Below are positions 7,489 through 34,107 of a stretch of 41,437 nucleotides of DNA, piece by piece. This DNA comes from a virus. Numbering within the stretch: the stretch's first letter is position 1; the number at the start of each line of letters is the position of its first letter. The notes under the pieces were generated by a model. It was not told the origin of the DNA. It worked only from the letters and a program-made list of their open reading frames with translations, and ran no database searches. The stretch spans positions 1 through 41,437 of the IMG/VR virus record IMGVR_UViG_3300036780_000032. One strand, 5' to 3'. The translations under genes were made by a program, and so were the position numbers.

Positions 7489-8736
7489 TTAGTTGGACTG
7501 CATGACCTGAAATTGCACGAAGCTTTGCAGCGAGCCTATTTCCGCCGCATTGCGGTCGATCTGCTGCGTCTCTGCCGACTGCGCTTTAACGGTGAAGGTG
7601 AGTGCCGCTCCGTTCGAGTAAGAGCCGGTCGTCTGCGTAGCGCTGTTCCCACCTGGAGTAGATGCGTTCGATGCTGAGCCTTGCGACACGGCCCAATTCG
7701 CTGTGCCATCGGTGACGTAGATGTTTACGGTGTCCGCACCGGAACCTGAGATCGTCTCCCAGAAGTAGGTGTACATGATCATCACGCGGCAGGGACATCC
7801 GCTCGCGGGCATCGTGATGGCCTGCGTATCTACCGTGGTGAGCGAGTGAGCGGTGAGCGAAACGTTGCCGCCCAGCAGTTTCGTAGTAACCGAATTGATA
7901 GCGGGAATATTGCAACCGGCCATCGCCGGCGCAAGCTTTCCGGCCGTTGCTACTACGACGCAACTCCCTACGCTTCCTGATAGCGCTCCGTCCGTGATGT
8001 CGCCCGTAGTTGTGACTGTTGTTGCCGCTACCGTGTTCGGAGTTGTCGAGCCAAGCGGACAGGGAACTTCCCACGTACAGCCTTCGAGCATTCCTACGTT
8101 GAGATTCGGCACTTCCGTCGTGCTGGCTACGACGAAAGGCGGCGTGCCGGTTACGAGCGTCGAAATGATCTGCCCCGAGAAAGTTCCGATCGTTGCGGTG
8201 AATCCTCCCGAGAAGTTGACGAGCCCGGAGAATGTCGGCGTCCCGGTATAAGTGCCATTGATTGTCCCGCCGCCGTTCAGAATGTTCGGCCCCGAGCTGG
8301 TGAAGCCTGCGTTGAATACCGCTTGCACGTCGAAAGTCACGGTGTTCGTGAATTCGTTCGTTCCTGTCCATACGTTGTTGCTCGAAAGCAGCGACAGGTT
8401 GTTGCTTGTGATGTTGTCTTCCGTCCATAGCGTTACGCCGTTGGGCAGAGTGAGAATGAACTTATAGGCCGATGTCCCAAGGAACACATTCATGCGCCCG
8501 GCCGAATCCGCTACCACAGGATTTGCGTTCGGCGTAAGTCCGCTTGAATCGGTGTATGTCGCAAGCGGGGTCGAAGTCCCAGCCACGTCGGTAAACAGCA
8601 TGCAACCCGAGCACACGTGCCCGTTGTTGTCAAAGAATTGCATCTTCAGAAAGGGATACGGGCTCACGTTCTGCGCTTTCGCAGAAGTACCAAACAGCGC
8701 GAGCAGAAATAGAATCAGGATTGCGAATCGCTTCAT
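7489..8736 (-). CDS. Tail fibre-like protein with a Sec signal peptide
   Basis: The 415-aa protein begins with a clear Sec leader (MKRF, hydrophobic LILFLLALF, GTSAKAQ cleavage zone). Immediately after it comes a domain typical of phage fibres that anchor to the virion (FFDNNG...TPLATYTDSSG...NPVVADSAGRMNVFL). A Gly/Thr/Ser-rich shaft-like region follows, and a C-terminal beta domain ends QFQVMQSN. Fibres are normally cytosolic during assembly, so the leader is anomalous. The ATG overlaps the previous stop (ATGA), which fixes the start and argues against a mis-called leader. Confidence 0.8.
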   Translation of the reverse strand: MKRFAILILFLLALFGTSAKAQNVSPYPFLKMQFFDNNGHVCSGCMLFTDVAGTSTPLATYTDSSGLTPNANPVVADSAGRMNVFLGTSAYKFILTLPNGVTLWTEDNITSNNLSLLSSNNVWTGTNEFTNTVTFDVQAVFNAGFTSSGPNILNGGGTINGTYTGTPTFSGLVNFSGGFTATIGTFSGQIISTLVTGTPPFVVASTTEVPNLNVGMLEGCTWEVPCPLGSTTPNTVAATTVTTTGDITDGALSGSVGSCVVVATAGKLAPAMAGCNIPAINSVTTKLLGGNVSLTAHSLTTVDTQAITMPASGCPCRVMIMYTYFWETISGSGADTVNIYVTDGTANWAVSQGSASNASTPGGNSATQTTGSYSNGAALTFTVKAQSAETQQIDRNAAEIGSLQSFVQFQVMQSN

Positions 8737-9809
8737 GGCGTTGGAACCTCTATCGGTGTGTCTGGCACTGCTTCAGCGGCAGGAACGCGTGCGCCGCCGT
8801 ATCCCGCACCCTTCGGAACATAGATGATGGTCTTGCCTTGGCTCTTCAGCACGTCAGCCGCTCCTGCTTTCCCCGCTCGCGCAGCCGCCGCCACTTCTGA
8901 ACGCGGTACGGAATACATGCTGCCCGGAGTCTCGCCCGGAGCCGGTGCGTTCGGTTCGGGAACGTGAATCACATCGGATTCGGGATCGAAGTCCGGAGAG
9001 GTAGGCGCATTCTCGCCGAGCGGCTTCGTGAGATTGCGTACCGCCTCGCGCACTTTCGCAGCTTCGACGCCCTTTGCCACTTTGGAATTGAAAATATCTT
9101 CGGGCGTCAAAGGAGTGCGTTCACCAATCGCAGCGCGTAGCAAGCTCGGGCCTGCCCGGTATCCTTCGAGTGCGCCAATCACAGGATGGCCCGTGGCAAT
9201 TCCCGTCATCGCTCCAGCCGCCCCTCCGCCGAATCGCGCTGCGGCTGCCACGCTAGGCTTCAGAGCGCCTTTCGGAGTGGTCAAAGCATCCGCCGCATTT
9301 AGACGCGCATCCGCCGCTGCATCGAGAACGGTGCTGCCTAATCCTGTCGCCCCTTTCACGAGTGCGGGCGTCGAGAGATTCAGCCCGAGCCCCACCGATT
9401 CACCGACGCCCTTTGCGACTTCGCCCGTGCCAATATCTGTTCCCGCTTCGTTTATCTGCGGGCCGAGAAAAGGGATGATTCCGTACAGCGACCGGGCTAC
9501 ACCTTTCCCGTAGTCGCCATTCTTGAAATCCTTTTCCGCTTGGTCGAGCAGCGCTTGCCGCTGAGTGGCGTCTGTAACGTAGGTGCTCACCGGATGCGCC
9601 GCGAGCGTGGCGGCTCCTACCGCTTGCGTCTTCGGATTGACCTTGCTCCACAATCCCGATGCAAAATCAGCCGCTTGGTCGAGCCAGTCTTTTTTTTGCG
9701 GTGCGGTCGCACCTTGCGGTGTATCGAGTGTGTAGCCCGAAGGAAGGGGCGGCGTTCCTTGGTCGAGTGTGTAGCCTCTCGGAAGCGGAGGAGTAGTGTC
9801 TTGGCCCAT
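8733..9809 (-). CDS. Internal virion / DNA-ejection-type protein (358 aa)
   Basis: Starts with a tandem motif PPLPRGYTLD / PPLPSGYTLD, a short repeat seen in large phage internal proteins. A helical Ala-rich region and a Gly/Ala-rich amphipathic middle (FGGGAAGAMTGIATGHPVIG) follow, with a Pro/Val-rich tail. It is third of three consecutive proteins placed like P22 gp7-gp20-gp16, the proteins ejected to form a channel across the envelope. Sequence identity to gp16 is not visible, so the role comes from position and composition. Confidence 0.5.
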   Translation of the reverse strand: MGQDTTPPLPRGYTLDQGTPPLPSGYTLDTPQGATAPQKKDWLDQAADFASGLWSKVNPKTQAVGAATLAAHPVSTYVTDATQRQALLDQAEKDFKNGDYGKGVARSLYGIIPFLGPQINEAGTDIGTGEVAKGVGESVGLGLNLSTPALVKGATGLGSTVLDAAADARLNAADALTTPKGALKPSVAAAARFGGGAAGAMTGIATGHPVIGALEGYRAGPSLLRAAIGERTPLTPEDIFNSKVAKGVEAAKVREAVRNLTKPLGENAPTSPDFDPESDVIHVPEPNAPAPGETPGSMYSVPRSEVAAAARAGKAGAADVLKSQGKTIIYVPKGAGYGGARVPAAEAVPDTPIEVPTP

Positions 9810-9810
9810 T

Positions 9811-11535
9811 TTACTGAACTGGCTTGCCTGTCACCGAATCAATCCACTGATCGCCCTGCACGAATATTTTGTGTCCGCCCGGTCCTGTCGCTGTCTTTGC
9901 GCCGGCAGGAATCGTCACCCCGCCCCCGCCCGTTGCCGCCGTGGTCTGCGTCCTGCTCTTCTCGCCAAGCCGTCCTTGAATGTCGTTGATCTGCTCTTGA
10001 TAGGACTGATGCCGGTTCGCCATGTCGGTGCGGAGAATGTTCGCAGCCGAGTAGATTTGCGCGAGCGTCGCATCGGGGCCAATGAGTGAGGACACTTCGC
10101 CACGGGCGGAATCGGAGAGCACACCAGAAGCATTGGAACTGTTAAGCACTTTGGCAATTTCGGTTAGTGCGGTGGTGCGCGCCGCGTTGAATGCCGCCAT
10201 GTTCGCCGAGCCTGCTATCTTGTCGCTCACTGCGCGCACGGGCGTATTGATAAGCGGACTTCCTGAGTCCACGATGTTCTTCGCTGTGGAGATGAATTGG
10301 TCGAGGTTCTTTCCCGCCGTGTTTTCGAAAGCGCTCACGTTGTCGAAGTTCTTCTGGATGTTTGTGAGCGATGATTTGTTCGCGCTGTAGATAGCCGAGT
10401 TCTGGGCGATAGACCCTTGCGGGTAGAGTTCGGATGCGCGATTCATAATCACGCGGTTCTGTGCGAGTCCTGCCGCTCCGCGCGCTGTCGGAGGCAGCAC
10501 TCCGGTTGTGGCATAGCGCTCTGCCGCCTGGTCAATCGCGTTCTGGTTCAGTCCACCGCCCGCCTGGTTTTGCAGATTCAAGTTGAGGATGGGAACGATA
10601 GACTTCTGGTAGCGCAGAAATTCGGCAGGCGTCGCCTTGTAACCTTTCGGCGGGTTTTGCATGAAGCTTTGAAGCTCCAGCTTTTCGGTAGGAATCTGCG
10701 CTTGAAGCTTGGCCTGCTCCACGGGGCCGATTGCAGTTTGCTGAAGCTGCTTCGGTGTGTCCGGTGTCCACGTAGCCGGATAGGATTTCAAGTCGTCGCT
10801 GGTGAATCCCTGCTTTCGCAGCGAGTTCAATTGCAACTGATAAATCGGGTCGCTCGATGCGTTGGCGAGTTGCGTTGCACCGGCCTGAATTTTCTTAGCC
10901 TGATTCTCTGCCGCAACGGTCGGGTCTGCCTCTTGCGCTCTTCGCAGTTTGTCCGCTTCGCTGAGCGTGTCCACCATCGCCTTCGATGTGTTGATGATGG
11001 CTTGCCGTTGGTCCGCAGACGGTAGTGTTGGCGAGAATTCTCCCGGCTTCAGAGTTCCGGCTTGCAGGTGCCCGTTGATGAGTTCGTTGTAGCGCTGCTG
11101 TTGCTGGTCTGCCGGGAGAGCATTCACTTCGGCCATATCTTGCGCGTAGGCTTCGTGCTTCGCCTTTTCATTGGCGAGAACCTTTTCGTTCGCCGTCGCC
11201 AAATCCGAAATCATCTTCGTGCGCCCGATTTGCGCTTGCGTGATGAATTGCCCCGATGCCCCGGCTTCCGTTGCTTTCTGAATCGCTTGGTCCCAATTCC
11301 CTCCCGCTTCGGTGAATGCCTGATTGAACTTCTGCATGTCCTGTTGCTGCTGCTGTTTCTGCTGAAGCTGAATCTGCTGCTCTTGCTGCGTGACGGCGTT
11401 CGACTGCTGCTGCTGTTGCTGGAGTTTCGTTTCGTTGATGAGGGCTTGCAGCGACATCCCCGCGCGTGCTTGGTCAAGCGGACCTTGCGGCTGCGGGGGA
11501 GGATTCACCATCAACGGAATCATTGAATTGCCCAT
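9811..11535 (-). CDS. Gln-rich coiled-coil ejection-type protein (574 aa)
   Basis: The start overlaps the previous stop (TAATG). The N-terminal 150 residues are a long Gln-rich coiled coil, including runs of five to six Gln encoded by CAG/CAA. The rest is helical with many Ala, Asn and Gln and ends in a small Gly-containing strand region (GHKIFVQGDQWIDSVTGKPV). Size, composition and position match P22 gp20-type ejection proteins. No enzymatic motif is seen. Confidence 0.55.
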   Translation of the reverse strand: MGNSMIPLMVNPPPQPQGPLDQARAGMSLQALINETKLQQQQQQSNAVTQQEQQIQLQQKQQQQQDMQKFNQAFTEAGGNWDQAIQKATEAGASGQFITQAQIGRTKMISDLATANEKVLANEKAKHEAYAQDMAEVNALPADQQQQRYNELINGHLQAGTLKPGEFSPTLPSADQRQAIINTSKAMVDTLSEADKLRRAQEADPTVAAENQAKKIQAGATQLANASSDPIYQLQLNSLRKQGFTSDDLKSYPATWTPDTPKQLQQTAIGPVEQAKLQAQIPTEKLELQSFMQNPPKGYKATPAEFLRYQKSIVPILNLNLQNQAGGGLNQNAIDQAAERYATTGVLPPTARGAAGLAQNRVIMNRASELYPQGSIAQNSAIYSANKSSLTNIQKNFDNVSAFENTAGKNLDQFISTAKNIVDSGSPLINTPVRAVSDKIAGSANMAAFNAARTTALTEIAKVLNSSNASGVLSDSARGEVSSLIGPDATLAQIYSAANILRTDMANRHQSYQEQINDIQGRLGEKSRTQTTAATGGGGVTIPAGAKTATGPGGHKIFVQGDQWIDSVTGKPVQ

Positions 11536-12467
11536 TAGTAGGCTCCCGCAAGGTTGTTGCTGCCGCCCGTGTTCGTCGCTGTATAGCCAGGGATGTTGTA
11601 CGGACTGATGGGAGCGCCGCCCCCGCCAAAAATCGGTGGTGTTGCTCCGAATCCACCGCCGAATCCGCCATTTTGCAAACCGCTGAGAGTCACGCCCTGC
11701 CCTACCGTGTTGAGAGCGCCGCCGATCCCCGCCGTCAGTGCGTTTGTGCTCCCCACCGTTCCGGCTGCTTGCGCCGCTCCTTGGCCCATGATGTCTTGGC
11801 CGTACTGCTGCGCTCCGCCAAGATTGATGTTCGCGAGATTGTTTGCGCCCGATTGCAGCGTCGAGTTGAGCGAAGAAGCCGAGCTTGCCCCGAGAACCGA
11901 TGGTGCGTAGTTCCAGTTGAAAAGATTGTTCTGCGAAGTGTTATAGACGCCGAAGTTTTCGTTGTATGCATTGAGCGCGTTGTTATAGGTGTTCTGATAG
12001 TTCGAAGCTGCTGTCCCTTCCGCATAGCCCAAAAGATTCTTCGCTGTTCCCGATGAAAGCAGTCCGCCACGAGCAGCCGCAGAATTTTGCAGAGAGTTCA
12101 ATCCTTGCTGGAGTTCGAATTGATAGCCTGGGGTCTGCTGCGCTTGCGCTGCTGTCGGTGCGGTGAACTGTCCATATTGCCCCGCGTAGTTCTGCGTGAG
12201 CTGTCCACCGGGAGCGATAAGCGATGCGAGATTGTTTGACGCTCCTTGTCCGGTTGAAATGAAGGGTTGGGCGTTGGCAGTCTGCGCGGTAGTCGCGGTG
12301 TTCTGAGCTGCCGTCGCTGTGCCGATAGCCTGCTGTTCGTTGTTGGCAGCCGCTTTGTCTGCTGCGGCCTGCTGCTGCGCGGCTTTGTTCGCAGCGTTCG
12401 AGCCGAGAATCCCTCCAACGAGAGACCCTACACCGCTGATTGCGCCTCCGATCAATGCCGATGGCAT
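11535..12467 (-). CDS. Ejection-type internal virion protein (gp7-like, 310 aa)
   Basis: An N-terminal Gly-rich hydrophobic stretch (IGGAISGVGSLVGGILGSNA) leads into an Ala/Gln helix (NKAAQQQAAADKAAANNEQQ). A conserved-looking core then includes LQQGLNSLQNSAAARGGLLSSGT, a pattern common in phage DNA transfer/ejection proteins. The C-terminal part is Gly-rich. It is first in the gp7-gp20-gp16-like trio. The pattern is recognisable, but which P22 protein it matches is uncertain. Confidence 0.6.
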   Translation of the reverse strand: MPSALIGGAISGVGSLVGGILGSNAANKAAQQQAAADKAAANNEQQAIGTATAAQNTATTAQTANAQPFISTGQGASNNLASLIAPGGQLTQNYAGQYGQFTAPTAAQAQQTPGYQFELQQGLNSLQNSAAARGGLLSSGTAKNLLGYAEGTAASNYQNTYNNALNAYNENFGVYNTSQNNLFNWNYAPSVLGASSASSLNSTLQSGANNLANINLGGAQQYGQDIMGQGAAQAAGTVGSTNALTAGIGGALNTVGQGVTLSGLQNGGFGGGFGATPPIFGGGGAPISPYNIPGYTATNTGGSNNLAGAY

Positions 12468-12468
12468 C

Positions 12469-12828
12469 TTAGGTTAACTCCTTGATGGAAACCGTCCACG
12501 GCTGCTTCACATATCCGAGCCGATTGATGTAGTCCGTCATTTCCTCATCTTTGCCGAAAGCCAAGAGTTGCGTGAGTCCGCAGAGCTTGGCCTGTATTTC
12601 GGCTTCTTTCACGAGCCGTTGCATCAGCGTTTTGTCGCGATATTCGCGGCGAATGTAGATGCCTTCAACGTGCGCCGGTGCCACGATGAAAACGCGCCCT
12701 ACAAGCTCTCGCGAATCCGCCTGGGCGACTACGGCGATAGCGTTCTGCGGGTCGGGCATAAAGCCGTCGTGTATGTGCGAAAGCATCTTCCACTGCTCGA
12801 CGGGCAGTCTTCTAACTTGGACAGGCAA
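12469..12828 (-). CDS. GNAT-like acetyltransferase-fold protein
   Basis: TTG start preceded by gaggg. The 119-aa protein shows the GNAT order: strand AIAVVAQ, strand VGRVFIVAPAHVEGIYIRREYR, helix TLMQRLVKEAEIQAKLCGL, strand QLLAFGK and a final DYINRLGYVKQ. The acetyl-CoA loop reads REYRDKTLM rather than R-x-x-G-x-G/A, so cofactor binding may be weak. Similar small proteins sit beside tail genes in other phages. Substrate is unknown. Confidence 0.6.
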   Translation of the reverse strand: MPVQVRRLPVEQWKMLSHIHDGFMPDPQNAIAVVAQADSRELVGRVFIVAPAHVEGIYIRREYRDKTLMQRLVKEAEIQAKLCGLTQLLAFGKDEEMTDYINRLGYVKQPWTVSIKELT

Positions 12829-12843
12829 GACAGCCCTCTAGGG

Positions 12844-12872: not shown

Positions 12873-12880
12873 TCTGTGCC

Positions 12881-13492: not shown

Positions 13493-13758
13493 GTGGTTGT
13501 GATGGTGACGAATCCCGCTCCGGTTCCGGGCGTGCCGAAGAAAAGCTTTCCTGTATCGGTTGCGAAGTACATCTCCCCAAGTTCGAGTGTGGGCCTGTCA
13601 GCCTGTAGTCCCTGCGAAGTCACGTTTATTGCTGGAGGGCCAGAAAGGAATGTACCCGCCGCAATGAACCAGCGCAGCCACGGCCAAGAGACACCGGCAT
13701 TCTGCTTGTCATCGGAAAACTTTGTTCGGAGAGGGAGTGGCCCGCCCGTGAAACTCAA
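13489..13758 (-). CDS. Small fibre-like virion protein (89 aa)
   Basis: Start chosen at a TTG overlapping the gp10-like stop (TTGA) and preceded by ggggac; the frame is open to 13812, but that part overlies gp10. The C-terminal half, LQADRPTLELGEMYFATDTG then KLFFGTPG, resembles the GE-x-Y-x-A-x-D-x-GKL-x-x-G repeats of phage fibre and collar proteins. Likely a minor tail component. Confidence 0.55.
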   Translation of the reverse strand: MSFTGGPLPLRTKFSDDKQNAGVSWPWLRWFIAAGTFLSGPPAINVTSQGLQADRPTLELGEMYFATDTGKLFFGTPGTGAGFVTITTT

Positions 13759-15968
13759 ATGCCTGTCCCCGGAATATATTCCAAGTAGCCGTCGATGATG
13801 CGCGGCCCCCACGCATCGGCGGTGGAGATTTCAAATACCATGTCGCGCGCTCTGCCGAGTCTTGTCCATCGCACGCGCTTTCGGAACTGACCGGACTTTC
13901 CGCAGTCTCGCGCGTATTCGTTTGACCATGTGTGGCCGCCATCGGTTGACCAGCGCAGCACGAGTTCCGGTCCACGTCCGGGGTTTCCCGGCTGCACGAC
14001 ACCGCCGCCCTTGGCAATAGAGATGCCGACGACGCCCCACTCCCCAGGCCCACCTGTTATCGCAAAATCCGTGGGAAACGGGCCGGCTCCAGCGGGAATT
14101 TGATGCGCGGAGTTCACGTCATTGGAAACGTGGTTGATTGCGTCGAGAAATGATTCAGTCCCATCCGATGTGTAGCCGCCTCCCGCGACCGCAATCGTCT
14201 GCCCATTCTGGAGAGCGAAGCCCGCAGCCATGATGAGGTCGCCTGCATTGCCCGCAATCGTTCCAGCGTTCACGGTGCCTGAGCCGCTATTTGCTCCAGT
14301 GTTTTGCGCGATGGCGTTGGTGACGAGTCGACTGAAGGCGTCAACGGCGGTGATGGTTCCCGCAAATTCATAAACGAAGAGAGCGGTGCCGTTGAAGCTC
14401 TGCAAACTTGAAACGGTGAAAGTACACGGGCCGGATGCCGTCTTCGTCGGGTAAGCGTACATCGAGAAGTTGTTCCAGAATCCCGTCATCGTATCGAGGA
14501 TTCCGCCGTAAGCGTTGGGAATGCCTCCCGGACAAATCCCGAGTGTGTCCACTATGCCGAAACCGCCTTGCGAGCCACGCCCGATAGCGACAAGCACGAC
14601 GATGCGCCCCGGTGTTACAGGGATAGTGACTTGCGCTCCGCCGAAAGCCTTCGCCATCCCGAACTGCGTTTGCTGAATGACTTGTGAAGGCGCGATGAAA
14701 TCAATGGGCGGCTCAGGGCCGAGCCCCGCTTCCAAGTAGACTTGCAGTTCCGCAAAGAATTGCCGCTTCTGTGCGTTCGAGATGTGCGGCGCTCGACGCA
14801 CTCTGCGAATCGGGTTGCCGTCATCGGTGACGAAACTCCATGTCGCACCGGTGAGCACCGGGATATTCATCTGGTAGATTTTGCCGCTCTGCCAGTCGCC
14901 TACCAAATGCTTGCCGAAGTTGAAAGTGTGATTCCAGTAGTGCGCGGCGCGGAACTGCCCCACCGTCGTAAGCCAGAATCCGCGCTCGTGCCACATCCCC
15001 GTCAGCGTGTCATACACCCAAGTCTTTGAAGGCGTCGGGAAGTAGAGCACGTAAAATTGGTGCCCTTGGTCTTGATAGGAAAAGCCCACCGCGTCATCAA
15101 TGCGCGTGTAGCCCTGAATCGCAAATTCGATGGCGTGATTCGAGATGCGTTGCGGAGTGTAGCCGTAGCCTTGCCACACCACGCCAGCGCCGCGTGCATC
15201 CGCCCCGAGCCAGAACACGGTGTTATTGAGTTGCACCGGAGTTGACTTCGCTGCGAGTCCCGCCTCAATGAACGCACCGGGAATCACGTCGAAAGGAAAG
15301 ATAGCGCCAGAATCAAAATAAACAACCGATTGCGTGTCGCTCCAGAACCATATTTCACGATGGTCTACCAGCATCCCTACGATGTTGTCGGGGAACACAG
15401 AAACGATGGCATTGCCGTTCGTCACCCAATCGGTCGCATCGAGCGGAGCCGATACGTAAAACTCTTTCGATTCCGCAATGACGGCAATAAAGAAATCATC
15501 GCAGATGCCGACGATAGAAACCGGGCCATCGAAGGTCGCACCGGGAATTGGAGTCAGCGTGTTCAGCCCCAAATCAAATACATAGGCCACGCCGCCTGCT
15601 GCAATCAGAAGTTGTTGAGGACTCGCCGCAAAAGTGACAGGGAGAGAGTCATTCGCGACGTTTCCCTGCACGAGTCCGCTGCCGTCTTTGAATATTTCAA
15701 CGAAGTTCGCGCCCTGCGCGGCGAAAGTGCGACCCACGACAGTAAACGTGCCGCGTACCGAAGTGTGCGCTCCCGGTGCAAGGTCGATGAACGTCTTCGT
15801 CCCCGGCGTGGGATAGAGAACGATAGGCGCATTGCCGCTCTGCGATTCGATGATTTCGGGATACCAGTTTATAGTGCTCTGCGCGTCAGCGTTGACTGAC
15901 TGCGAAGTGTACGATGGCCCGATTAATCCGAACCGCTGCGCCTGTTGCGCTACGGCGCTACTTCCCAC
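13755..15968 (-). CDS. P22 gp10-like tail hub / packaged-DNA stabilisation protein with inserted domain
   Basis: GTG start after ggtgaag. Residues 12-420 match the gp10 family: INWYPEII near residue 35, TPGT, repeated beta-propeller-like strands, WVYDTLTGMWHERG near 317. The protein plugs the portal after packaging and links it to the tail. Residues 424-656 (14001-14699) look like a separate Gly/Ala-rich beta-sandwich domain. The gp10 C-terminus then resumes (ELVLRWSTDGGHTWSNEY...LGRARDMVFEI). Position after the gp4-like gene agrees with P22 order. Confidence 0.8.
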   Translation of the reverse strand: MGSSAVAQQAQRFGLIGPSYTSQSVNADAQSTINWYPEIIESQSGNAPIVLYPTPGTKTFIDLAPGAHTSVRGTFTVVGRTFAAQGANFVEIFKDGSGLVQGNVANDSLPVTFAASPQQLLIAAGGVAYVFDLGLNTLTPIPGATFDGPVSIVGICDDFFIAVIAESKEFYVSAPLDATDWVTNGNAIVSVFPDNIVGMLVDHREIWFWSDTQSVVYFDSGAIFPFDVIPGAFIEAGLAAKSTPVQLNNTVFWLGADARGAGVVWQGYGYTPQRISNHAIEFAIQGYTRIDDAVGFSYQDQGHQFYVLYFPTPSKTWVYDTLTGMWHERGFWLTTVGQFRAAHYWNHTFNFGKHLVGDWQSGKIYQMNIPVLTGATWSFVTDDGNPIRRVRRAPHISNAQKRQFFAELQVYLEAGLGPEPPIDFIAPSQVIQQTQFGMAKAFGGAQVTIPVTPGRIVVLVAIGRGSQGGFGIVDTLGICPGGIPNAYGGILDTMTGFWNNFSMYAYPTKTASGPCTFTVSSLQSFNGTALFVYEFAGTITAVDAFSRLVTNAIAQNTGANSGSGTVNAGTIAGNAGDLIMAAGFALQNGQTIAVAGGGYTSDGTESFLDAINHVSNDVNSAHQIPAGAGPFPTDFAITGGPGEWGVVGISIAKGGGVVQPGNPGRGPELVLRWSTDGGHTWSNEYARDCGKSGQFRKRVRWTRLGRARDMVFEISTADAWGPRIIDGYLEYIPGTGI

Positions 15969-16028
15969 GCTTCACCAATTCCCCGGTCTGCCAGTTGAAA
16001 TAGACATTGCGACAACGCTTCCTGGATT

Positions 16029-16037: not shown

Positions 16038-16044
16038 GCCCGGA

Positions 16045-18017: not shown

Positions 18018-18791
18018 CTAAACGTAACTCGGAACCCACTTGCTGTTCGTTGCATCCCACGTAAACGTGAGTGCGCGATTCACTACGGCCGTTCCCAAAA
18101 CAGCGATGTTACCAGCCGCAGTCCATGTAAACGTGCCGTCTGGAATCACGGTGAACTGGCACGCCCCCACAGCCGTTGCATTGCAACCAATCGGCGTAGT
18201 GAAGCCGGTGATCGCAAGCGCTCCAGTGATGTGAAAGAGCGGGCCGGAAGGAAGCACAACCCCGGCCGCTGAAGCCACGGCCGTTGTCACGGTCGCGCCT
18301 CCGGGCAGAGATGCGTTGTAGTATCCCGGAACCCAAGACTTCGTGACTGTGGAGCACAACCACTGATTGCCGCTGATGACGTTGACGTAGGGAGTCGAAA
18401 GAACCGAGCCCGGTACGCACGCGCCTTGCGGATCGTGGTTGTAGAAGTAAGTGGGGTTGCCCGCCAGCACCATCGCACCGCTCGCATGTCCTGCTGCGGG
18501 TGTTCCGCCAGCACCGCGCGTAACGTGAATCTGCGTGCCGCTGACGCCCACCACAACCATCTCTTCTCCGTCGATATAGAGAATCGTGGCTGTGGTGTTT
18601 TGCGAAGTGGTGATGCCGGTTGCCGAAGCTACCGGGATGAAGTTCTGGCTCGCATTGATGAGCGCAGTGATTGTGGTTTGGGTCAAAGTATTCTGGGCCG
18701 TTTGCGCCTGTACTGCTTTCGGCGAATTCAGTTCCAGAGCACCAAAGGTTGCAACGAGCGCGAGTAGTGCAACTGCGAGTGTTTTTCTCAT
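18018..18791 (-). CDS. Secreted-type virion-region protein with Sec signal peptide
   Basis: Start chosen at the ATG with upstream taaggtg; an in-frame GTG at 18803 is the alternative. The leader MRKTLAVALLALVATFGALE ends in a VQAQ cleavage zone. The mature part carries a beta domain with ILYIDGEEMVVVGVSGTQIHVTRG followed by GTPAAGHASG, a pattern of phage structural proteins, and a C-terminal domain ending TFTWDATNSKWVPSYV. It lies directly after the coat gene where decoration or fibre genes occur, yet it has an export signal. Confidence 0.65.
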   Translation of the reverse strand: MRKTLAVALLALVATFGALELNSPKAVQAQTAQNTLTQTTITALINASQNFIPVASATGITTSQNTTATILYIDGEEMVVVGVSGTQIHVTRGAGGTPAAGHASGAMVLAGNPTYFYNHDPQGACVPGSVLSTPYVNVISGNQWLCSTVTKSWVPGYYNASLPGGATVTTAVASAAGVVLPSGPLFHITGALAITGFTTPIGCNATAVGACQFTVIPDGTFTWTAAGNIAVLGTAVVNRALTFTWDATNSKWVPSYV

Positions 18792-25066: not shown

Positions 25067-26584
25067 TTAGCTCCAAGCCGAAGCCGCTCGGGGCATCGGC
25101 GCTTCTCTCTTCGGTGCCAAGGCTACAGGACGCGCAAAGGTGAGCGCAAGAGCATCGGCGTGGTCCGGAGAGCCGAAGTCGGGCAATCGCTTGCGAATGT
25201 CATCTTTCGATTCGAGCCATACGCGCTGCTGTGCGTCATTGCGAATTCCCGGCGTCGCGAGTTCCAGTTCCAATCGGTTTGCCGGGTCGCGCGAAGAATT
25301 CACGTTCGGAGCGTCAATCGCCCCGGTGAGCAGCCATTCTTTCATCAACCCCCACATATAATCGCGCATGTAACGGTAGTGCCGGTCTGGTGCGTCGCCG
25401 CCGAAGTTTATTTCCACGACGTTCTGAAAGCCAAGCTGCTGCAAGCGCGGAGTGATGGCCCCAGAGATTCCAGCCGAATCGAGAAACATGGTGTGCACGC
25501 GCTTGCCGTTGTAGTTGCCGCGCAGCACGTCGGCGAGCTTCACCGTCATCACGGACGCATCGCGCGTGTGCTCTCCCGGTATCACAATCGGTTTGATGGA
25601 GCGTGCATCTTTTCCGCAGCGGAACCGAACGACGTTAAAATCCGAACCTCCCCATGCGAGGTCAACTCCCGCAATTAAGGGCTCATCCGTCAGCGTAAAT
25701 ACCGCGCGCTTCTGAGCGTTCGTAATGCGCTCCAAGTCGATGAATTGTGAATCATCAGCGCGAGGTGGAACGCCACGTACGCGAACACGTACGAAGTCAG
25801 AATCCTCTCCGTAGTCTTCAACCCATTCACGGATTAGCTCCTTGTTCGAGAACGCGCAAGTGCGCGAATCAATGGAACGGGTATTCCATCGGTTGCTGCC
25901 CGCACCGAAAGTGAAGTTATGGAACTTGCCCTGCGAACGTGTCGGGTTGCCGAAGGCGAATATCATGGGCTCGCCGTCAGTCAGTCCACCTTCCGCTACT
26001 TCCCATATTTTGTCGGGAACCGCCGACGCCTCATCGAAGATATAAAAGCTGGTCGAGCGAACGTTGTGCTGCCCCGCGAACGCTTCCGAATTTTCCTCTT
26101 TGCAGGTTTGCGGAGCACAGAACCACGATTCGGAATGTTCCTTTTTGTACATCCGCCCATTCGTCACTTCAAACCAGTGGCCGGTGATGCACATTTTCGT
26201 CCATGCCTGAATCGTCGCCCACGTCTTGTCGCGCAACTGAATGAAGGTGTTTGCGGTGATGGTTCCCTTCGCGTGAGGGCGCGTGGACATCAACCAATCC
26301 ACGATGAAGGCGACGAGGACAGTCTTACCGATTCCGTGCCCAGACGCCGTTGTTTCTCGAATTGGCATTACGGAATGAAAGCCATCGAATTGGCGCTTGA
26401 GAACCGCTGCTCCGAGTTCGATGAGGAAGTCTCTCTGCCATTTATCGGGACCTTTGAAGCATTCAAGCGGTCCCGGCATTCCCCACGGGTAGGCGAACTT
26501 CACGAAGCCGTAAGGGTCGGCATAGAAGCGTGAAACCTGTTCGGCCAAGAGCGATTCAGCGCTGATGGTGAGTTGCGCGTTCAT
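25067..26584 (-). CDS. terL: Terminase large subunit
   Basis: The ATPase domain has a Walker A-type GHGIGKT (residues 82-88) and Walker B FYIFDEA (about 180-186). The nuclease domain has GVDLAWGGSDF (Asp near 308), FLDSAG (Asp near 369) and a late HADALAL, the three acidic metal-binding sites of the RNase H-like fold. The enzyme pumps DNA into the prohead and cuts it. Start set at the ATG at 26584; a TTG at 26596 is in frame. It overlaps no upstream ribosome site and may be coupled to the preceding stop (TAAAATG). Confidence 0.9.
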   Translation of the reverse strand: MNAQLTISAESLLAEQVSRFYADPYGFVKFAYPWGMPGPLECFKGPDKWQRDFLIELGAAVLKRQFDGFHSVMPIRETTASGHGIGKTVLVAFIVDWLMSTRPHAKGTITANTFIQLRDKTWATIQAWTKMCITGHWFEVTNGRMYKKEHSESWFCAPQTCKEENSEAFAGQHNVRSTSFYIFDEASAVPDKIWEVAEGGLTDGEPMIFAFGNPTRSQGKFHNFTFGAGSNRWNTRSIDSRTCAFSNKELIREWVEDYGEDSDFVRVRVRGVPPRADDSQFIDLERITNAQKRAVFTLTDEPLIAGVDLAWGGSDFNVVRFRCGKDARSIKPIVIPGEHTRDASVMTVKLADVLRGNYNGKRVHTMFLDSAGISGAITPRLQQLGFQNVVEINFGGDAPDRHYRYMRDYMWGLMKEWLLTGAIDAPNVNSSRDPANRLELELATPGIRNDAQQRVWLESKDDIRKRLPDFGSPDHADALALTFARPVALAPKREAPMPRAASAWS

Positions 26585-26585
26585 T

Positions 26586-29500
26586 TTAGAATCCAAACAC
26601 TTGCGGGGCCGGCGCTCCGGGCGGCGTCGTGATTCCCGTTCCCGTCAGACTTACGTTGTTCGGGCTCGATGCCGCATTCGTATTGACGCTGAAGGTTGCC
26701 GCGCGCGCTCCCCCAGTTGTGGGCGAGAACATCAGCGAGTAGGTGCAAGAGGCATTCACCGCAAGCGATGCCGAGCAGGTCGTAGAGAATCCGAAGTCAC
26801 CGGGATTCGCGCCACCCATTGTTCCCGTGCTGATTGTCAGCGCCGCCGTTCCCGTGTTCATCACAATCACTACTTGCGGATTTGATTGTGTGCTTACGGT
26901 CTGATTGCCGAATGCGATAGCGGACGTGCTCAGAGTCACCGCTGGTGTCGGCGTAAACCCGACCCCTTGAAGAGACACCGATTGTGGGCTTCCCGGCGCT
27001 GAATCGGTGAAGGTTATAGCCGCAGTGCGCGATCCGTTTGCCGATGGCGTGAACTTTACGGATACCGTGCAACTTCCGCCCGCTGCGAGACTCGCACCGC
27101 AGTTATTGGTCTGCGCGAAGTTCGATGCATTCGTTCCAGTGACGGCAATCGAAGAAATAGAAATCGGGCTTCCCCCGCTATTCGTCGCGGTGAAGTTCAT
27201 TGCGGCCGAAGTCGTCGTTACTGCCTGATTCGGGAAGGTGAGAGATGCCGGATTGAATCCGATGTTCCCGATGGCCGCGCCCGTGCCGCTTACGTTGAAG
27301 CACTGCGGCGAAGCTGGCGCATTGTCCGTAACGCAAATCTGCGAAGCAAGCGCACCAGCCGCTTGCGGCGTGAACGTCACGTTGATGGTGCAAGTCCCTG
27401 AAGCCGCCACGGTGCCGCAGTTGTTCGTCTGCGAAAAGCTGGTGAAGTTCCCGCCTGTAGGAGCGATGCCGGTTACCACGAGATTACCGCTTCCTGTATT
27501 CGTCACTGTCACAGATTGCGGGGCCGAGCTAGTTCCCACAGTCTGCGATGCGAATGTCAGACTCGTCGGCGAAAAGCTGATTCCGGCCGTTGCGGTAATA
27601 CCCGTTCCACTCAAGGCCGCTGTGTGCGGCGATCCTGCCGCATTGTCTGTAACCGTGATGTTGGCCGAAAATGCTGCTGCTGAAAGTGGCGTGAACTTCA
27701 CCGCAATGACGCAGCTTCCCCCGACGTTCACCGATCCACTGCAATTATTGGTTTGCGAAAAGTCGGCAGAATTCGTGCCTCCCGGAGCGATGGAAGAAAT
27801 CGTGAGGGTAGCCGTTCCAGTATTGGAAAGAGTGATGTTCTGTGCGGCGCTAGAACTACCGACAAGAATGTTGCCGAAGGCCAGCGAAGAAGGCGAGAGA
27901 CTCACAATCGGCGCTGTTGCTGCTCCAGAACAGGGCGAGCCGGTTATAAGGGCGCTCGGATAGCAAGCCGGTGTGTAGTCAAGACTCCATGTATTCGTTG
28001 AAGAGCACCGATACATCAGCCCTTTGTTGCCGCCACCGCTCATGTCCCAAGTGCCTTGATCTGTCGCCCAATAACCCACGCCCGTTGTGCAGGTCGTCGG
28101 GCGATTCGCCAGCGTGCCGTGGCCCATGCCCGGAGTGCTCGCTGCTCCCCCGAGTCCTGCGTTATCTGTGAACGGACCGGGAATCGTCAGCGTGAGTGAG
28201 GTATTTGCGACCAGTGATGCGATAGGGAATGTGCCAGTGGGGTTGTAGCTGTGAAGCGTCCCGAGCGCCACGCCGCCGATCTGTGCATAGCTTCCACGCT
28301 GAAATCCGGTGGTGTCCGCTACGTTGTAGGTGCAAGAGTTCAAGCTAAAATTGCATGACCATCCGGAAATCGCGATGGTGTTGGCGGCTCCGTTGAAGGG
28401 AGCGGTCGCACTCGTTTGCGCCATTTGGTTAGGCGCTTCTGTATAGAAGTCGCGATTGGGGATGATCGAAAAAGTATTCGATGAAAGAGTGTGATTCATC
28501 GAAGCCGGACCCGCATCGTTTGCTTCGTAGCTCGGTGTGAGAGCTTGATTGACCGGAGCGACGGGCGTCGGGTTGTGGTAGCCAGAAAGAAGCGCACCCT
28601 GAAATCTAGTCGGTTGGTCTATGCAAACTGTCGAGCGGCGAATCTGGTACGTGTCACCCATCGCCGGAAGTCCGCTCGGCGGCCCGCTGCCGCTGCAACT
28701 CGTTCCTTGGCATCCCACATAAACAGTTAGAGTATTTGCCGTGAAGTGCTGAATTTCAAAGCCGAATTGTCCGGTAACATCGAAGAAGGTATAAGGCGAG
28801 CCATACACCAGCGGCGTAAATCCGCCGCCCCACGCACCCGAGGTGGTTATCGTATAGGTTTCAGGACCGAGATTGTTCACTGAGGGAGCGGTTACAGTTC
28901 CAGAAGCGTATATCGTAGGCGTTGCGCCCCCGTCGTTCGTATCGTAGGGACTGAGCGTGTTACATCCGCCGAACACAAGCACGGATTGCGGACGCCATCG
29001 TCGCTGCGCGTCCATGTTGTTTAGACCGCTGAAAAATCCGCCGCCGCTGTTGCTGAAAGTATTCGAGAACGAACGTCCTGAACCAGAACGCCCCGGCCAT
29101 GCGGAACCGCATCCTTGCGCTGTGTTCGTGCAAACTCCAGTGTTGAAATATGCTTCCCACTGCGCTACGCCTCGCGGTCTGCCGGTTGTCTCCGTCCCAT
29201 GACCCGTGCAGTATCCGTTGATGTTCATCGGGTTGGAATGATTGAACCGGCAACCGAAGCGTGCCCCACCACCGAGCGGGCTCGGGTCTGGAATGTCGGT
29301 ATCAGTCGGCAGAGAGTAAGCAAAAGAATTATTCTCTAGCATCATCATCTGCGTTGAGCCAAGACTCGGAGCGGTCGCAAAAGAATTGTCGCCAAATCCG
29401 CCGATGCCCTGCCATTCGCCATGCCCCACATTCATAAAATTAACGTAGTTCACTGTGGGAGCGACATCTCCTACCGTGTTGTGGTCGGCAACACCGAACA

Positions 29501-30677
29501 TATTTGAAATGATTGTGACTGAGCCATCTGAAAGACCGAGGTTCGACCAACTTGTGGGAAAGATGAGATTGTCGAGACGAAGATTCGGACAGCCTGCCGC
29601 CGTGCAGGTTCCATTAACGCTTATCGGTGCACCAGCTCCGGAAGAGGGCAAGAGATTCAAACAAGAAATTCTTGATAGGCTGTTGCCGAACGTCGGACTC
29701 ATCGAGAAGCCGCCGTGCGTAATACTTGTTGTTACTGTTCCGGCTCCGAATTGGCTTGGCAGAGTGTTGGGCGTGCAGGCCCCGACGATCTGAATTCCGA
29801 TATTCGAATTTACCGGAATTGTTCCCGTCCACGTACAGCCCCCGGCTGGAATGTTGATCGTGTCGCCATCTACTGCGTTGTGTGGGCTGATGGGAGGCGT
29901 CGTTCCGCCAGTGCCATTGATGACTTCGTTCACGTCTCCCTGATTGCAGGATGAAGCGGTAAAGGTGCCACTAGCTGTTTGTGGCGTCCTGAAACTGGAA
30001 AAACCGTAGAGGCTGTTTTCCGCTGAGAGTCCGCCTCCATTGTAAAAACCGATCCCCGGCGAACCGCTCGTATAGGTCGAATCCGATGCCGTAAACGAAT
30101 AGAGCACGGTGCCCGCACGGGTTGCCGTCCCCGTTATGGCACTGCCAACAATGGTTGCACAGAATATATCCCCAGTCTGAAGCGCGGTAAGCGAACCGGC
30201 CGTCGGAGTCGCCGCGAGTCCTGTAAAGTTGTTGAGTGCGCCGTTCCACCGAACGATTCCAGCGTATAGATGGCCGCTCCCCGCGTTGTTCCCCATCGAA
30301 TAGTTGATTTCATACCCGGTGATGCTGTGGGATGCAATCGTGACGCGAAGCCGGATTTCTACTTCGGGAAAGAAACTGTTTCTCTGCGCTGTGCTCAAAT
30401 TCTGCGTGACAACCCCGCAAGCGGATTGATTCGAGGGCCAGCTACCGGTCAATACGGCCGTTGAATCGGTGTACGGCGGTCCGCCCGAAACGGTGGTGCC
30501 AAAAGCAAGCCCCGGCGTCGTCTGCACGTCGCCCCAATCGAGGCCGTTGGTGTGCCCATTGAGCCAGTTGCCGCTCTGATTTATCGGGTTTTCCGTCGCG
30601 GGGAAATTCGTAGTATATGACTGCGCGTGCGTCGAGATGGCCGCGAGGATGAATAGAAGTGCGAGCTTTCGCGTCAC
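26586..30677 (-). CDS. Giant secreted-type spike/adhesin with four HYDIN/Ig-like repeats
   Basis: The 1,363-aa protein has a GTG start overlapping the previous stop. Order: Sec leader (MTRKLALLFILAAISTHAQ); a LamG/concanavalin-like domain (about 20-230, with GDIFCATIVG and PGIGFYNGGG); a beta-helix-like region starting DGDTINIPAGGCTW; a long Gly/Asn-rich middle; and four repeats of about 106 aa from residue 925 (26589-27905), each with L-x-F-x-x-Q/I-x-V...NNCG...SC-x-x-x-V-x-F-P. Such repeats are abundant in secreted Acidobacteriota proteins. Placed among phage fibres, it is likely a tailspike or adhesin; the leader suggests host origin. Confidence 0.7.
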   Translation of the reverse strand: MTRKLALLFILAAISTHAQSYTTNFPATENPINQSGNWLNGHTNGLDWGDVQTTPGLAFGTTVSGGPPYTDSTAVLTGSWPSNQSACGVVTQNLSTAQRNSFFPEVEIRLRVTIASHSITGYEINYSMGNNAGSGHLYAGIVRWNGALNNFTGLAATPTAGSLTALQTGDIFCATIVGSAITGTATRAGTVLYSFTASDSTYTSGSPGIGFYNGGGLSAENSLYGFSSFRTPQTASGTFTASSCNQGDVNEVINGTGGTTPPISPHNAVDGDTINIPAGGCTWTGTIPVNSNIGIQIVGACTPNTLPSQFGAGTVTTSITHGGFSMSPTFGNSLSRISCLNLLPSSGAGAPISVNGTCTAAGCPNLRLDNLIFPTSWSNLGLSDGSVTIISNMFGVADHNTVGDVAPTVNYVNFMNVGHGEWQGIGGFGDNSFATAPSLGSTQMMMLENNSFAYSLPTDTDIPDPSPLGGGARFGCRFNHSNPMNINGYCTGHGTETTGRPRGVAQWEAYFNTGVCTNTAQGCGSAWPGRSGSGRSFSNTFSNSGGGFFSGLNNMDAQRRWRPQSVLVFGGCNTLSPYDTNDGGATPTIYASGTVTAPSVNNLGPETYTITTSGAWGGGFTPLVYGSPYTFFDVTGQFGFEIQHFTANTLTVYVGCQGTSCSGSGPPSGLPAMGDTYQIRRSTVCIDQPTRFQGALLSGYHNPTPVAPVNQALTPSYEANDAGPASMNHTLSSNTFSIIPNRDFYTEAPNQMAQTSATAPFNGAANTIAISGWSCNFSLNSCTYNVADTTGFQRGSYAQIGGVALGTLHSYNPTGTFPIASLVANTSLTLTIPGPFTDNAGLGGAASTPGMGHGTLANRPTTCTTGVGYWATDQGTWDMSGGGNKGLMYRCSSTNTWSLDYTPACYPSALITGSPCSGAATAPIVSLSPSSLAFGNILVGSSSAAQNITLSNTGTATLTISSIAPGGTNSADFSQTNNCSGSVNVGGSCVIAVKFTPLSAAAFSANITVTDNAAGSPHTAALSGTGITATAGISFSPTSLTFASQTVGTSSAPQSVTVTNTGSGNLVVTGIAPTGGNFTSFSQTNNCGTVAASGTCTINVTFTPQAAGALASQICVTDNAPASPQCFNVSGTGAAIGNIGFNPASLTFPNQAVTTTSAAMNFTATNSGGSPISISSIAVTGTNASNFAQTNNCGASLAAGGSCTVSVKFTPSANGSRTAAITFTDSAPGSPQSVSLQGVGFTPTPAVTLSTSAIAFGNQTVSTQSNPQVVIVMNTGTAALTISTGTMGGANPGDFGFSTTCSASLAVNASCTYSLMFSPTTGGARAATFSVNTNAASSPNNVSLTGTGITTPPGAPAPQVFGF

Positions 30678-31522
30678 AGAATCTTACCTTTCGGGCCACG
30701 ACCTGATGCCGGGGGCGGACTGGATAGGAATGTAGCGCCTACGATGTTCTGAGCTGTCGCTGCGGGGCTTTGGTTGAATGCGAAGGTACTGGCGGTTGTG
30801 GCCGTCACCGCTACAGATTCGATGCCGGTTGAGGTCGTGGATTGGTTGTCGCTGCCTTGCGCTGGAATCGCGTCGAATCCGAGATTAAAGCACGAACTTG
30901 CACAAGCTCCGCCGCTGCCCGCAGAAACAACTGGCAGTGTCCCCGTCTCCGTCATAATTGTGGCGAAGGCATATTCAGACGAACTGGTCAGAGTCGCAGT
31001 CATCCCTGTAGCTACTTGCGCTCCCGAACAGCACGCGCTGATTGTTTGGGTTGTATCTAAGCACGAGGTCTGGTTGATGTTTGAGACTTCTTGCGCGTAA
31101 AGAGCAGTCCATCCGGCTTGCGAGCTGCCCATGTCCATCGTTATCTGGATAGAATTGGTCGGGCTTGTTATATCTCCACCGCAGGCATACATGATTCCAG
31201 TCCAGTGCCCTGGTGGCCCGAAAATTCCGTTCTGAAGCGAAGTAGCCTTGTGCCAAGTGATTGTCGCGCCCGTGACGGACATGTTTCCGGTTACACGATC
31301 CGTTGCACCCGTCTGTTGCTGGTAAGCAATGATGATGGCGTTGAAAGTCGTGTAGTTCGATGTGCAGCCAGTCGAACCGCCTGAACTACCAATCGTGATG
31401 ATGTAGTTCTGCTTTGCGCTTCCGCCATTGACCGATTTGCAGGTCTGAATATTGGCCGGCGTGACGGCGCGTGCAGGAAGCGCACAGAACAGCAGGGCGA
31501 GAACGGCCAAAATATATTTCAC
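30674..31522 (-). CDS. Secreted-type virion-region protein with Sec leader (282 aa)
   Basis: Start chosen at the GTG overlapping the upstream stop (GTGA); a GTG nine bases further up is in frame. The leader MKYILAVLALLFCALPARA is a textbook Sec signal. The mature part is a Ser/Thr/Gly-rich beta-sandwich with a central W-x-G-I-M-Y-A...W-x-A-L-Y-A-Q-E-V segment and several Cys. The same layout appears in the domain inserted in the gp10-like protein (14001-14699). Likely a fibre-associated or cell-surface protein. Confidence 0.6.
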   Translation of the reverse strand: MKYILAVLALLFCALPARAVTPANIQTCKSVNGGSAKQNYIITIGSSGGSTGCTSNYTTFNAIIIAYQQQTGATDRVTGNMSVTGATITWHKATSLQNGIFGPPGHWTGIMYACGGDITSPTNSIQITMDMGSSQAGWTALYAQEVSNINQTSCLDTTQTISACCSGAQVATGMTATLTSSSEYAFATIMTETGTLPVVSAGSGGACASSCFNLGFDAIPAQGSDNQSTTSTGIESVAVTATTASTFAFNQSPAATAQNIVGATFLSSPPPASGRGPKGKIL

Positions 31523-34107
31523 TGGTCGCACTCCAGCGAAGCCGAAACGAATTTGGCAGTTGCTACCGTACTGACATTCATTGCCAAAATGTCATTGGCC
31601 GAAACTGCCGTAGTGGTGAAGTCTGTCACCGTGGTCGAATGAATTGCTGTGCCGGTGGAAATGGCTACGCCGCTCGTGCTGATGGAATTGCCGGATGTCG
31701 GGATTGCCGTGCCCGTCGCCACTTTCCAAAACTTAATTGTAACCGTCCCTGCATCAATCAGGATGTTGTAGGCCGAAATGGTGCAGGCGAAGGGCACCGT
31801 CATGTAATCCGTAGCTGTTGAGCCTGCCGTGATTGCCGAAGAGTTCCCCGGATCGCCATAAGAGAACACGAGGCCGCGCGTTCGAATCGGCGCAGTGACC
31901 GTTGGCGTGATCGTAGTCGTGTTGCCGCTGTTCACCGCTGCATAAGTCAGACCTGTGCCATTCACGAGGTTGGCGACTATTTGAGTCGATGTACCGTTGA
32001 CCTGAAGCGTGAGCGGCTTTCCTCCTGCTGCGGCTGAGACCGTATCGGGAGAAAGTATCGTCGTTTGTACTTGCGTCGGCGCCGTGACGCTGGTTTCCGC
32101 AAGAAATGTCTGCGTGCCGGTGGGCTGTACCGTTGATCCTGTATCGTCCACGTCGCCTGCCACAGTCGTGCTTGGAATCAGCCAATGGCCCGCCGTGGTG
32201 TTGTTTGACGGGATGACGGTGCAATGCGCGGCCCAGCAAATGATGACGGTTTGTCCTGAAGTTCCAGTTGACAGCGCGACGCCTAAGACTCCCTGCGTGG
32301 TGCTCGTCGGGCAGGTGATGGCTTTATTGTTCGAGCTACGGCACGCCAGCTTGTTTGCCGTCACTCCCGCAGTGTCAATAATCCACTCATCGTAATTCCC
32401 AACTGTTGCGGTGTTGCTGCCGTTCGGTGTGCGCGTCGGCGTTGAGCCGTCATCGGTGACGCTGGAATTGCCGATGACGGTTGTGTTCGTCCACTTCGTC
32501 ATCGTGTTCGAAGTGCCGCTTCCGGTGACGCCTCCAGCGCCCGAAGTTGTTCCGCAGTTCGCAAAGTAATTCGAGTTGTCCGAGTAGATGAAGCAGTAAT
32601 TGCCAGCAATGATGGCGAGAGTTGCCGCCCCGTTGATGGTGCTCGTTGCCGGCGTGACGGTGACGGTTCCTGAGCCTTGCGCGTTCGTCAGAACAGCCGT
32701 GAAGTTGTTAGTGAATCCGCCGGTGCCTGCTTGCGCGATGGTGACTGCGGTTGCGCCCGATGCTGCTGTATAGCGCACCATGCTCACGCGGTCTGTCGCC
32801 ACAATCGGGTCAGAATTGCTTGAGACAGTGCGAATCGGTACGCCCTGCTTGCAGTTAGCGAGTGTCGAAGAAGTCGGAAAGCAGATTACATCGTTTGCTG
32901 CGGGGCTCGTGAAGGTGACTGGAATCGTCTGTACGCCAGTGACTGTTGGCGCTGCATCCGTTCCGCCGTTCAAGTCTCCAGCCAACTGCATGAATCCGGG
33001 TTGAGCTGCGGTTGCGAGAGGGCATTCAAGCGAGAAGTTCGATGTGGGCGAGCCGTTGTCAGTCTGCGCGAAACAATTCAGGAAATTGGCTTGCGCTGCG
33101 GGAGTTGTGTTGTTGAAATTGTCAAGCGTTCCCGCCATCGTCACGCCATTTACCTGAAGTGTTTGCTGCGGACCTACCGGGCCTGGTGCAATATCGGAAA
33201 TGAAGACATCTACAATCGCCGATGTGCCGGTGCCAGCGTTCACGGTTTGCGCGATGCCAAGCTGTTGCACGCCGGTAGGACAAGACGGGCCTGCGTCGTG
33301 CCCTTCTGAGCCGCTGGACGCCGCCACAATACAATCGTCAATCACTGAAGTATTGTCGAGGGTAATTGGGCAGCTTCCGATTTTGCAGATGAGCGCTGTG
33401 CCGCTCGAACCTCCTCCGGTATAGACGACGCCGACGATACTCGTCAGTTGCGCGGCCGGCAGATTGATGCAGTTTCCCGAAGCATCGCGCGTCACGAGTA
33501 AGCCGTTTGTCGTTCCGCTCGCGCTGTTCACGCAGTTGTAAAGGCTTGAAGGCTGCGAAACAGGGTCCGCGTTCTGAATTACGCCTGCCGCGAGAACCGT
33601 CGGCGAGTTCCCAATGTCGGACGAGTCAGTCCATATCGCGTAGGTATTGGCTGTTCCCGAGCCGCCCACAGCGCCCGTTCCGCCGCCTGCTCCCGTTGCG
33701 TTCGGGCTGCCGACTGAAGATGTGATCGTAGATCCTACAGCTCCGCTGCTGTATGTAGAGACGCGCAAACGCACGGCACTGAATCCTGAAACGCCAGCGC
33801 GCCACGCGCCCGGTGCTGTTGCTGCTGTAACTGACGTGGTTGCACCGGTGGGCTGAGCATTCACCGCTACCCACGATGCCCCATTATTCGCTGTCCCTTC
33901 GAACTGCACCGTGCCAGAGAATGTGCCGGTGAGTTGAAAGACTGCACTCGCTGAGTTCGAGTTCAGGTTCAGCACGAGACAAGCTCCAGCAGTCGAGCAC
34001 GCCCCGGAATCCTGAGCCGTCAGACTGCCACTAATGCTTTGATTCTGTGCGCGCGCCGCCACGCTCAACAGCAACGCACACATCAACGCTAAGATTGTTC
34101 GTTTCGT
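31519..34107 (-). CDS. Long tail fibre with Sec leader and possible ACG start
   Basis: Translation from an ACG at 34107 gives KRTILALMCALLLSVAARAQ after the initiator, a perfect Sec signal, and aaggagg lies six bases upstream. Alternatives are a GTG at 34206 (coupled to the upstream gene) or ATG at 34083. The mature protein (about 840 aa) has a FSGTVQFEGTANNGASW N-terminal domain, repeated shaft motifs (NTMTKWTNTTVIGNSSVTDD, NTYAIWTDSSDIGNS) and a C-terminal receptor-type domain (VPFACTISAYNILI...VTIKFWKVATG). These are hallmarks of tail fibres. Confidence 0.7.
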   Translation of the reverse strand, partial: TKRTILALMCALLLSVAARAQNQSISGSLTAQDSGACSTAGACLVLNLNSNSASAVFQLTGTFSGTVQFEGTANNGASWVAVNAQPTGATTSVTAATAPGAWRAGVSGFSAVRLRVSTYSSGAVGSTITSSVGSPNATGAGGGTGAVGGSGTANTYAIWTDSSDIGNSPTVLAAGVIQNADPVSQPSSLYNCVNSASGTTNGLLVTRDASGNCINLPAAQLTSIVGVVYTGGGSSGTALICKIGSCPITLDNTSVIDDCIVAASSGSEGHDAGPSCPTGVQQLGIAQTVNAGTGTSAIVDVFISDIAPGPVGPQQTLQVNGVTMAGTLDNFNNTTPAAQANFLNCFAQTDNGSPTSNFSLECPLATAAQPGFMQLAGDLNGGTDAAPTVTGVQTIPVTFTSPAANDVICFPTSSTLANCKQGVPIRTVSSNSDPIVATDRVSMVRYTAASGATAVTIAQAGTGGFTNNFTAVLTNAQGSGTVTVTPATSTINGAATLAIIAGNYCFIYSDNSNYFANCGTTSGAGGVTGSGTSNTMTKWTNTTVIGNSSVTDDGSTPTRTPNGSNTATVGNYDEWIIDTAGVTANKLACRSSNNKAITCPTSTTQGVLGVALSTGTSGQTVIICWAAHCTVIPSNNTTAGHWLIPSTTVAGDVDDTGSTVQPTGTQTFLAETSVTAPTQVQTTILSPDTVSAAAGGKPLTLQVNGTSTQIVANLVNGTGLTYAAVNSGNTTTITPTVTAPIRTRGLVFSYGDPGNSSAITAGSTATDYMTVPFACTISAYNILIDAGTVTIKFWKVATGTAIPTSGNSISTSGVAISTGTAIHSTTVTDFTTTAVSANDILAMNVSTVATAKFVSASLECDQ

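Follow-up and report, generated by a model that had tools for sequence, protein, structure and literature searches.

In the textbook account a tailed phage is assembled entirely in the cytosol, and in phage P22 the spikes are the last part to be added. P22-type tailspikes (7eeq, 9vyg/9vyh and that of Xanthomonas phage PBR31) have an N-terminal virion-attachment, or head-binding, domain and follow the ejection genes; those available for comparison are leaderless and lack cysteines in this domain. We analyzed a 41,437-base virus contig (IMG/VR record IMGVR_UViG_3300036780_000032, the whole of which we call the window), by gene content a P22-like podovirus record, in which five proteins of the late block, SP1 to SP5, begin with predicted Sec leaders. 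SP1 shares the homologous attachment domain and the gene slot of the P22-type tailspikes but differs from them in both leader and cysteines. The receptor-binding protein pIII of filamentous phage M13 is likewise made as a Sec preprotein (PMC8310372), although it is membrane-anchored and assembled during extrusion, in an unrelated virus, whereas the window spikes lack a second anchor. We consider it probable that the late leader proteins of this group of soil phages, whose hosts are probably Acidobacteria, are receptor-binding or fibre parts that leave the cytoplasm through Sec, form disulfides in the periplasm and attach to particles at lysis.

All five open reading frames are real and lie on the minus strand, the plus-strand frames being full of stops. 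In each leader a positive n-region precedes a hydrophobic core and a small-x-small cleavage motif, after which Gln is the usual next residue, and a rule-based test found these Sec/signal peptidase I features, including small residues at -3 and -1. The mature parts of SP1 to SP5 hold no second anchor (maximum 19-residue hydropathy of 1.05–1.47). The ACG start of SP5 is plausible, because a perfect AGGAGG lies 6 nt upstream and the ortholog in G002 has an ATG directly before the equivalent leader; an alternative GTG start at 34206 would give the same leader with a long n-region. A sequence-only reading of the window had described these five leaders as a genome-wide habit. This description holds, and a sixth Sec-leader gene, absent from that reading, lies at the end of the late operon.

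We compared leaders between the window and 22 related loci (20 virus records and two loci from genomes), with genes called and the leader rule allowed any start. Leaders were found in 17/18 SP1, 18/21 SP2, 6/7 SP3, 2/2 SP4 and 13/14 SP5 family genes (56/62 in total), against 3/174 core virion genes of the related records under the same rule. In a larger, overlapping set of major capsid protein relatives, every SP2 ortholog adjoining the capsid gene has a leader (38/38), and in two of these the leader sequence is unrelated to the others. The leaders are beyond chance, and the conservation in related phages that had been proposed as a check is borne out. SP2 and SP5 found no match in an annotated phage collection, and single-protein searches of viral contigs returned two weak loci for P0001 and none for P0005. 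Ten SP1 orthologs (L098, L102, L103, L105, L108, L109, L111, L123, L126 and L130) have n-regions of 15–25 residues before the hydrophobic core; these recall extended signal peptides, with the choice of start uncertain.

Homology identifies SP1 as a tailspike. The first 90 residues of the mature protein match 7eeq, a solved tailspike head-binding domain (E of 1e-15 by profile, 5e-6 by single sequence), and the N-terminal domain also matches the tail spikes 9vyg/9vyh. The start of SP1 is 50% identical to that of the PBR31 tailspike, which is leaderless and has the same place in the gene order. The order g11535-g9811-g8733-SP1, as in PBR31, places SP1 directly after the ejection genes, in the tailspike slot. 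The head-binding domain starts right after the leader, in agreement with the earlier remark that leaders stand directly before virion-type domains. SP1 is nonetheless classed from its sequence as a variant and not as a standard member of the P22-type tailspike family, since it and its close relatives carry a leader, whereas the family is made in the cytosol without one. The C-terminal part of SP1, which in this family is a trimeric receptor-binding or beta-helix region, has no family match.

The head-binding domain links the leader to cysteine content. Among 115 proteins with this domain, exactly two cysteines are found in 21/22 called leader proteins and none in 90/93 called leaderless. The sole leaderless call with two cysteines, from G023, visibly has a leader that the rule missed; once corrected, the pair is present in 22/23 leader and 0/92 leaderless proteins. 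The pair occupies alignment columns 74 and 140 (15 sequences) or forms a CxxC at columns 70 and 73 (window and G002), and half a pair is never seen. On a weak tree of this short domain the leader state changes three times, and the two larger leader clades have different disulfide solutions.

Exported disulfide-forming bacterial proteins tend to have even cysteine counts (PMC7678975). Median Cys content was 1.77% in leader proteins and 0.40% in core virion proteins (Mann–Whitney U, 5e-30), and 78/85 leader proteins had an even count and 7 an odd count, with zeros taken as even. With relatives and zeros removed, mature counts were 31 even and 5 odd for leader proteins versus 50 and 67 for leaderless proteins (Fisher, 3e-6). 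The mature cysteine count is thus both even and high relative to leaderless proteins, the pattern of disulfide-bonded exported proteins. Of 22 SP1 family members, one has an odd count (7) and the rest have 6, 8, 10, 12 or 14 mature cysteines, with the number of changes put at about 10 by parsimony; the 9 counted in the G023 protein includes a leader cysteine, leaving 8 in the mature form. Probable hosts encode DsbA-like thioredoxins (5/5 genomes) and VKOR (2/5). The leaders look functional because the proteins that bear them are Cys-rich with even counts, and the sequences strongly support export and disulfide formation.

We propose that the late leader proteins would be made as precursors, taken through the inner membrane by the Sec machinery of the host and cut by signal peptidase. 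In the periplasm, an oxidising compartment, the mature proteins would then gain structural disulfides as they fold. One of these disulfides appears to lie in the virion-attachment domain, and the spike would therefore have to finish folding outside the cytoplasm; since a capsid in the cytosol is out of reach for an oxidised head-binding domain beyond the membrane, docking would occur only at lysis. Spikes would wait in the periplasm or envelope until it breaks, then snap onto the tail of a DNA-filled, spikeless particle. The gain may be that disulfides harden the spikes for existence in soil, outside the cell. We lean, by a little, towards the broader view that a tailed-phage lineage finishes its virions outside the cytoplasm, with spikes and fibres, docking domain included, being Sec-exported, disulfide-locked in the periplasm and docked on particles released by lysis, and that this trait has had more than one origin, with disulfide solutions that differ.

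The chief rival, above all for SP3 to SP5, is that these proteins, though exported and disulfide-bonded, are not, or not mainly, virion parts. They would act instead as free secreted depolymerases, or on the infected cell as adhesins or blockers of receptors, with recycled fibre domains. Leaders and disulfides would suit any secreted protein, and the C-terminal end of SP3 comprises four ASH/HYDIN-type repeats, each with a Cys pair. SP3 to SP5 match no named virion family, SP4 and SP5 have no Pfam match, and all three lie outside the tail block, between the small-terminase candidate g34203 and terL. SP1, however, retains a virion head-binding domain, which would be of no use on a free protein, and it occupies the tailspike slot with no leaderless fibre-sized gene among the identified late genes of the window to replace it. 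SP2 also argues against free secretion, being locked beside the capsid gene in 38 relatives. Its predicted structure (pLDDT, the predicted local distance difference test, of 71) is structurally closest, with low TM-scores, to phage tailspike, capsid and tail-tube proteins and to viral fibres; on this model it is a phage structural protein, possibly at a head-proximal site. A receptor-binding or fibre role is indicated by homology for SP1, is likely for SP2 and is inferred for SP3 to SP5. Overall, we judge free secretion unlikely, though it is the strongest of the alternatives. Of the options offered by the sequence-only reading, virion parts attached outside the cytoplasm is the best supported, with SP3 to SP5 as candidate virion parts.

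A less favored alternative is that the leaders target the membrane, the inner membrane being the site of spike tethering or translocation and, before lysis, of virion assembly. The hydrophobic N-terminal extension of the capsid protein in the window and four relatives could bring capsids to the membrane, and the long n-regions of several SP1 relatives are compatible with such staging. However, the extension is confined to the window and 4/47 capsid relatives, the mature SP proteins of the window have no further anchor, and the disulfide in the head-binding domain puts that domain across the membrane from the capsid. We regard assembly at the envelope as improbable.

It is very improbable that the leaders are unused passengers acquired with host secreted genes, leaving the proteins cytosolic. 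The cleavage motif (A/V/S/G)-x-(A/G/S)↓Q, found in 62/96 phage leaders and 68/484 phage non-leader proteins, is also common in host leaders (31/76). Yet the SP2 orthologs beside the capsid gene retain a leader without exception even where its sequence was replaced, and the even-Cys bias, with a Cys pair that appears in the head-binding domain only together with the leader and by two solutions, contradicts the earlier suggestion that the leader is ignored. A start-codon artefact, with the real starts downstream of the hydrophobic stretch, is just as hard to credit: SP3, SP4 and SP5 do use GTG or ACG starts and SP2 and SP3 have weak ribosome sites, but most SP1 relatives have no start codon between leader and domain, many orthologs have a ribosome site at the leader ATG, and mature proteins from internal starts, once raised as a possible refutation, are unlikely when the head-binding domain of the leader-bearing SP1 family begins right after the leader and the sole in-frame ATG near it in the window, Met32, would remove its first part.

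Several points weigh against exported virion parts that dock at lysis. The leader detector is a home-made rule, and a crude test finds another transmembrane-like stretch in 8/48 orthologs. Typical exported proteins of the acidobacterial genome G272 (800 kb tested) have 19 even and 16 odd counts, a weak bias that is not significant, and are low in Cys; therefore, oxidative folding is no general rule there. The AlphaFold model of SP1, made without an admissible alignment, has a pLDDT of 31. The ASH repeats of SP3 are common in cellular secreted proteins, and SP3 could be a host-derived secreted protein. Finally, the presence of leader proteins in the virion is deduced from one domain.

Table 1 Leader proteins and other late genes of the window (↓, predicted cleavage).
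Feature	Position	Strand	Leader	Remarks
SP1	7489..8736	-	MKRFAILILFLLALFGTSAKA↓QNVS	Tailspike by homology; head-binding domain ~residues 22-110 with CxxC (Cys42/Cys45); 8 mature Cys
SP2	18018..18791	-	MRKTLAVALLALVATFGALELNSPKAVQA↓QTAQ	Directly downstream of major capsid gene; predicted phage structural beta-domain; 4 mature Cys
SP3	26586..30677	-	MTRKLALLFILAAISTHA↓QSYT	1363 aa; four C-terminal ASH/HYDIN-type Ig repeats; 32 mature Cys
SP4	30674..31522	-	MKYILAVLALLFCALPARA↓VTPA	282 aa; 8 mature Cys
SP5	31519..34107	-	TKRTILALMCALLLSVAARA↓QNQS	Probable ACG start; large; 20 mature Cys
Sixth leader protein	5951..6550	-		Outer-membrane-beta-barrel-like: C-terminal Phe, ...SAGIGLRF; 2 mature Cys
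M15-type endolysin	6560..6976	-	None	
Three ejection/internal virion genes	8733..12467	-	None	No Cys; upstream of SP1; order as in Xanthomonas phage PBR31
P22 gp10-type head closure protein (Hc3)	13755..15968	-	None	Core virion control
P22-type major capsid protein	18805..20214	-		Unusual ~45-aa hydrophobic N-terminal extension
Portal protein	21223..23370	-		
Terminase large subunit	25067..26596	-		

The late block lies on the minus strand and is P22-like, with genes for terminase, portal, scaffold, a P22-fold capsid protein, a gp4-like head-tail adaptor and a gp10-type head closure protein that would form the tail hub, and an ejection protein followed by two more genes in internal-protein slots. 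Family searches matched the capsid protein to PF11651 (E of 8e-26) and further late genes to phrog_156, 578, 637 and 598. The M15-type endolysin has no leader, and therefore a holin would be needed. The host is probably an acidobacterium, because capsid relatives with 90% and 57% identity lie on Acidobacteria and Candidatus Acidiferrales contigs from metagenome-assembled genomes (MAGs). A third relative, with 49% identity, is on a contig binned as Betaproteobacteria. L060 (contig JAHFRL010000053.1) is a relative of the window phage in a MAG labelled Betaproteobacteria, which may be a binning error.

Hydrophobic capsid extensions of ~30–45 residues, in the window and in L003, L007, L018 and L019, are of two unrelated types. 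L003 and L019 have no standard start codon at the usual capsid N-terminus, and therefore the fused capsid form seems obligatory in them; the window retains a TTG at that place. On the plus strand, on the early side, the gene at 3749–4156 encodes a likely lipoprotein, MRNSFWFAQFFVLSSLAGLLLSGC, with six more Cys; its product is possibly a superinfection-exclusion or moron protein.

Leader-bearing spikes were also seen in other settings. In the 49.8-kb virus record L152, a head-binding-domain protein with a leader (CSGC, 10 Cys) precedes a 767-residue leader protein. In genome G272 (L148/L232), a 6.4-Mb acidobacterial contig, a prophage-like block has a leader spike, then two further leader proteins and a putative lysozyme; the genes upstream of it are a different set, and it is a candidate inducible laboratory system.

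The open-access literature yielded exported phage lysins, spanins, Lom and filamentous-phage coat proteins, and no leader-bearing tailed-phage spike. We know of no tailed phage whose particle is completed outside the cytoplasm, as the proposed reading would imply here. If correct, the assembly of tailed phages would involve a second compartment through exported and oxidised spikes, phage infectivity would be tied to the Sec and disulfide machinery of the host, and a leader with paired cysteines would be a simple genomic marker for such phages. The even-Cys signature is the same statistical test for oxidative folding as that described for exported bacterial proteins (PMC7678975), here found in virion-type proteins of tailed phages. 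Lambda Lom, a phage-encoded exported outer-membrane barrel in the tail region that is not a virion part (PMC12309495), is a likely analogue of the sixth leader protein, which has no Pfam or PHROG match and by position is a candidate Lom-like moron. Nearer to the spikes are two proteins of cultured phages, Burkholderia phage BcepC6B gp19 and Xanthomonas phage PBR31 orf035. Both are annotated as tail fibre or structural proteins, are encoded right after the tailspike or fibre gene and have an MKKLIA... Sec-type leader and 2 to 4 mature Cys, but they belong to another fibre family than SP1 and lack a head-binding domain. In the PBR31 paper, the esterase gp40 is the only protein for which a signal peptide is noted (PMC10975493). 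None of 12 genes tested had a leader in Bordetella phage BPP-1, to whose Bbp9 BcepC6B gp18 is annotated as similar. BcepC6B and PBR31, as cultured phages with leader fibres, make the general idea testable now.

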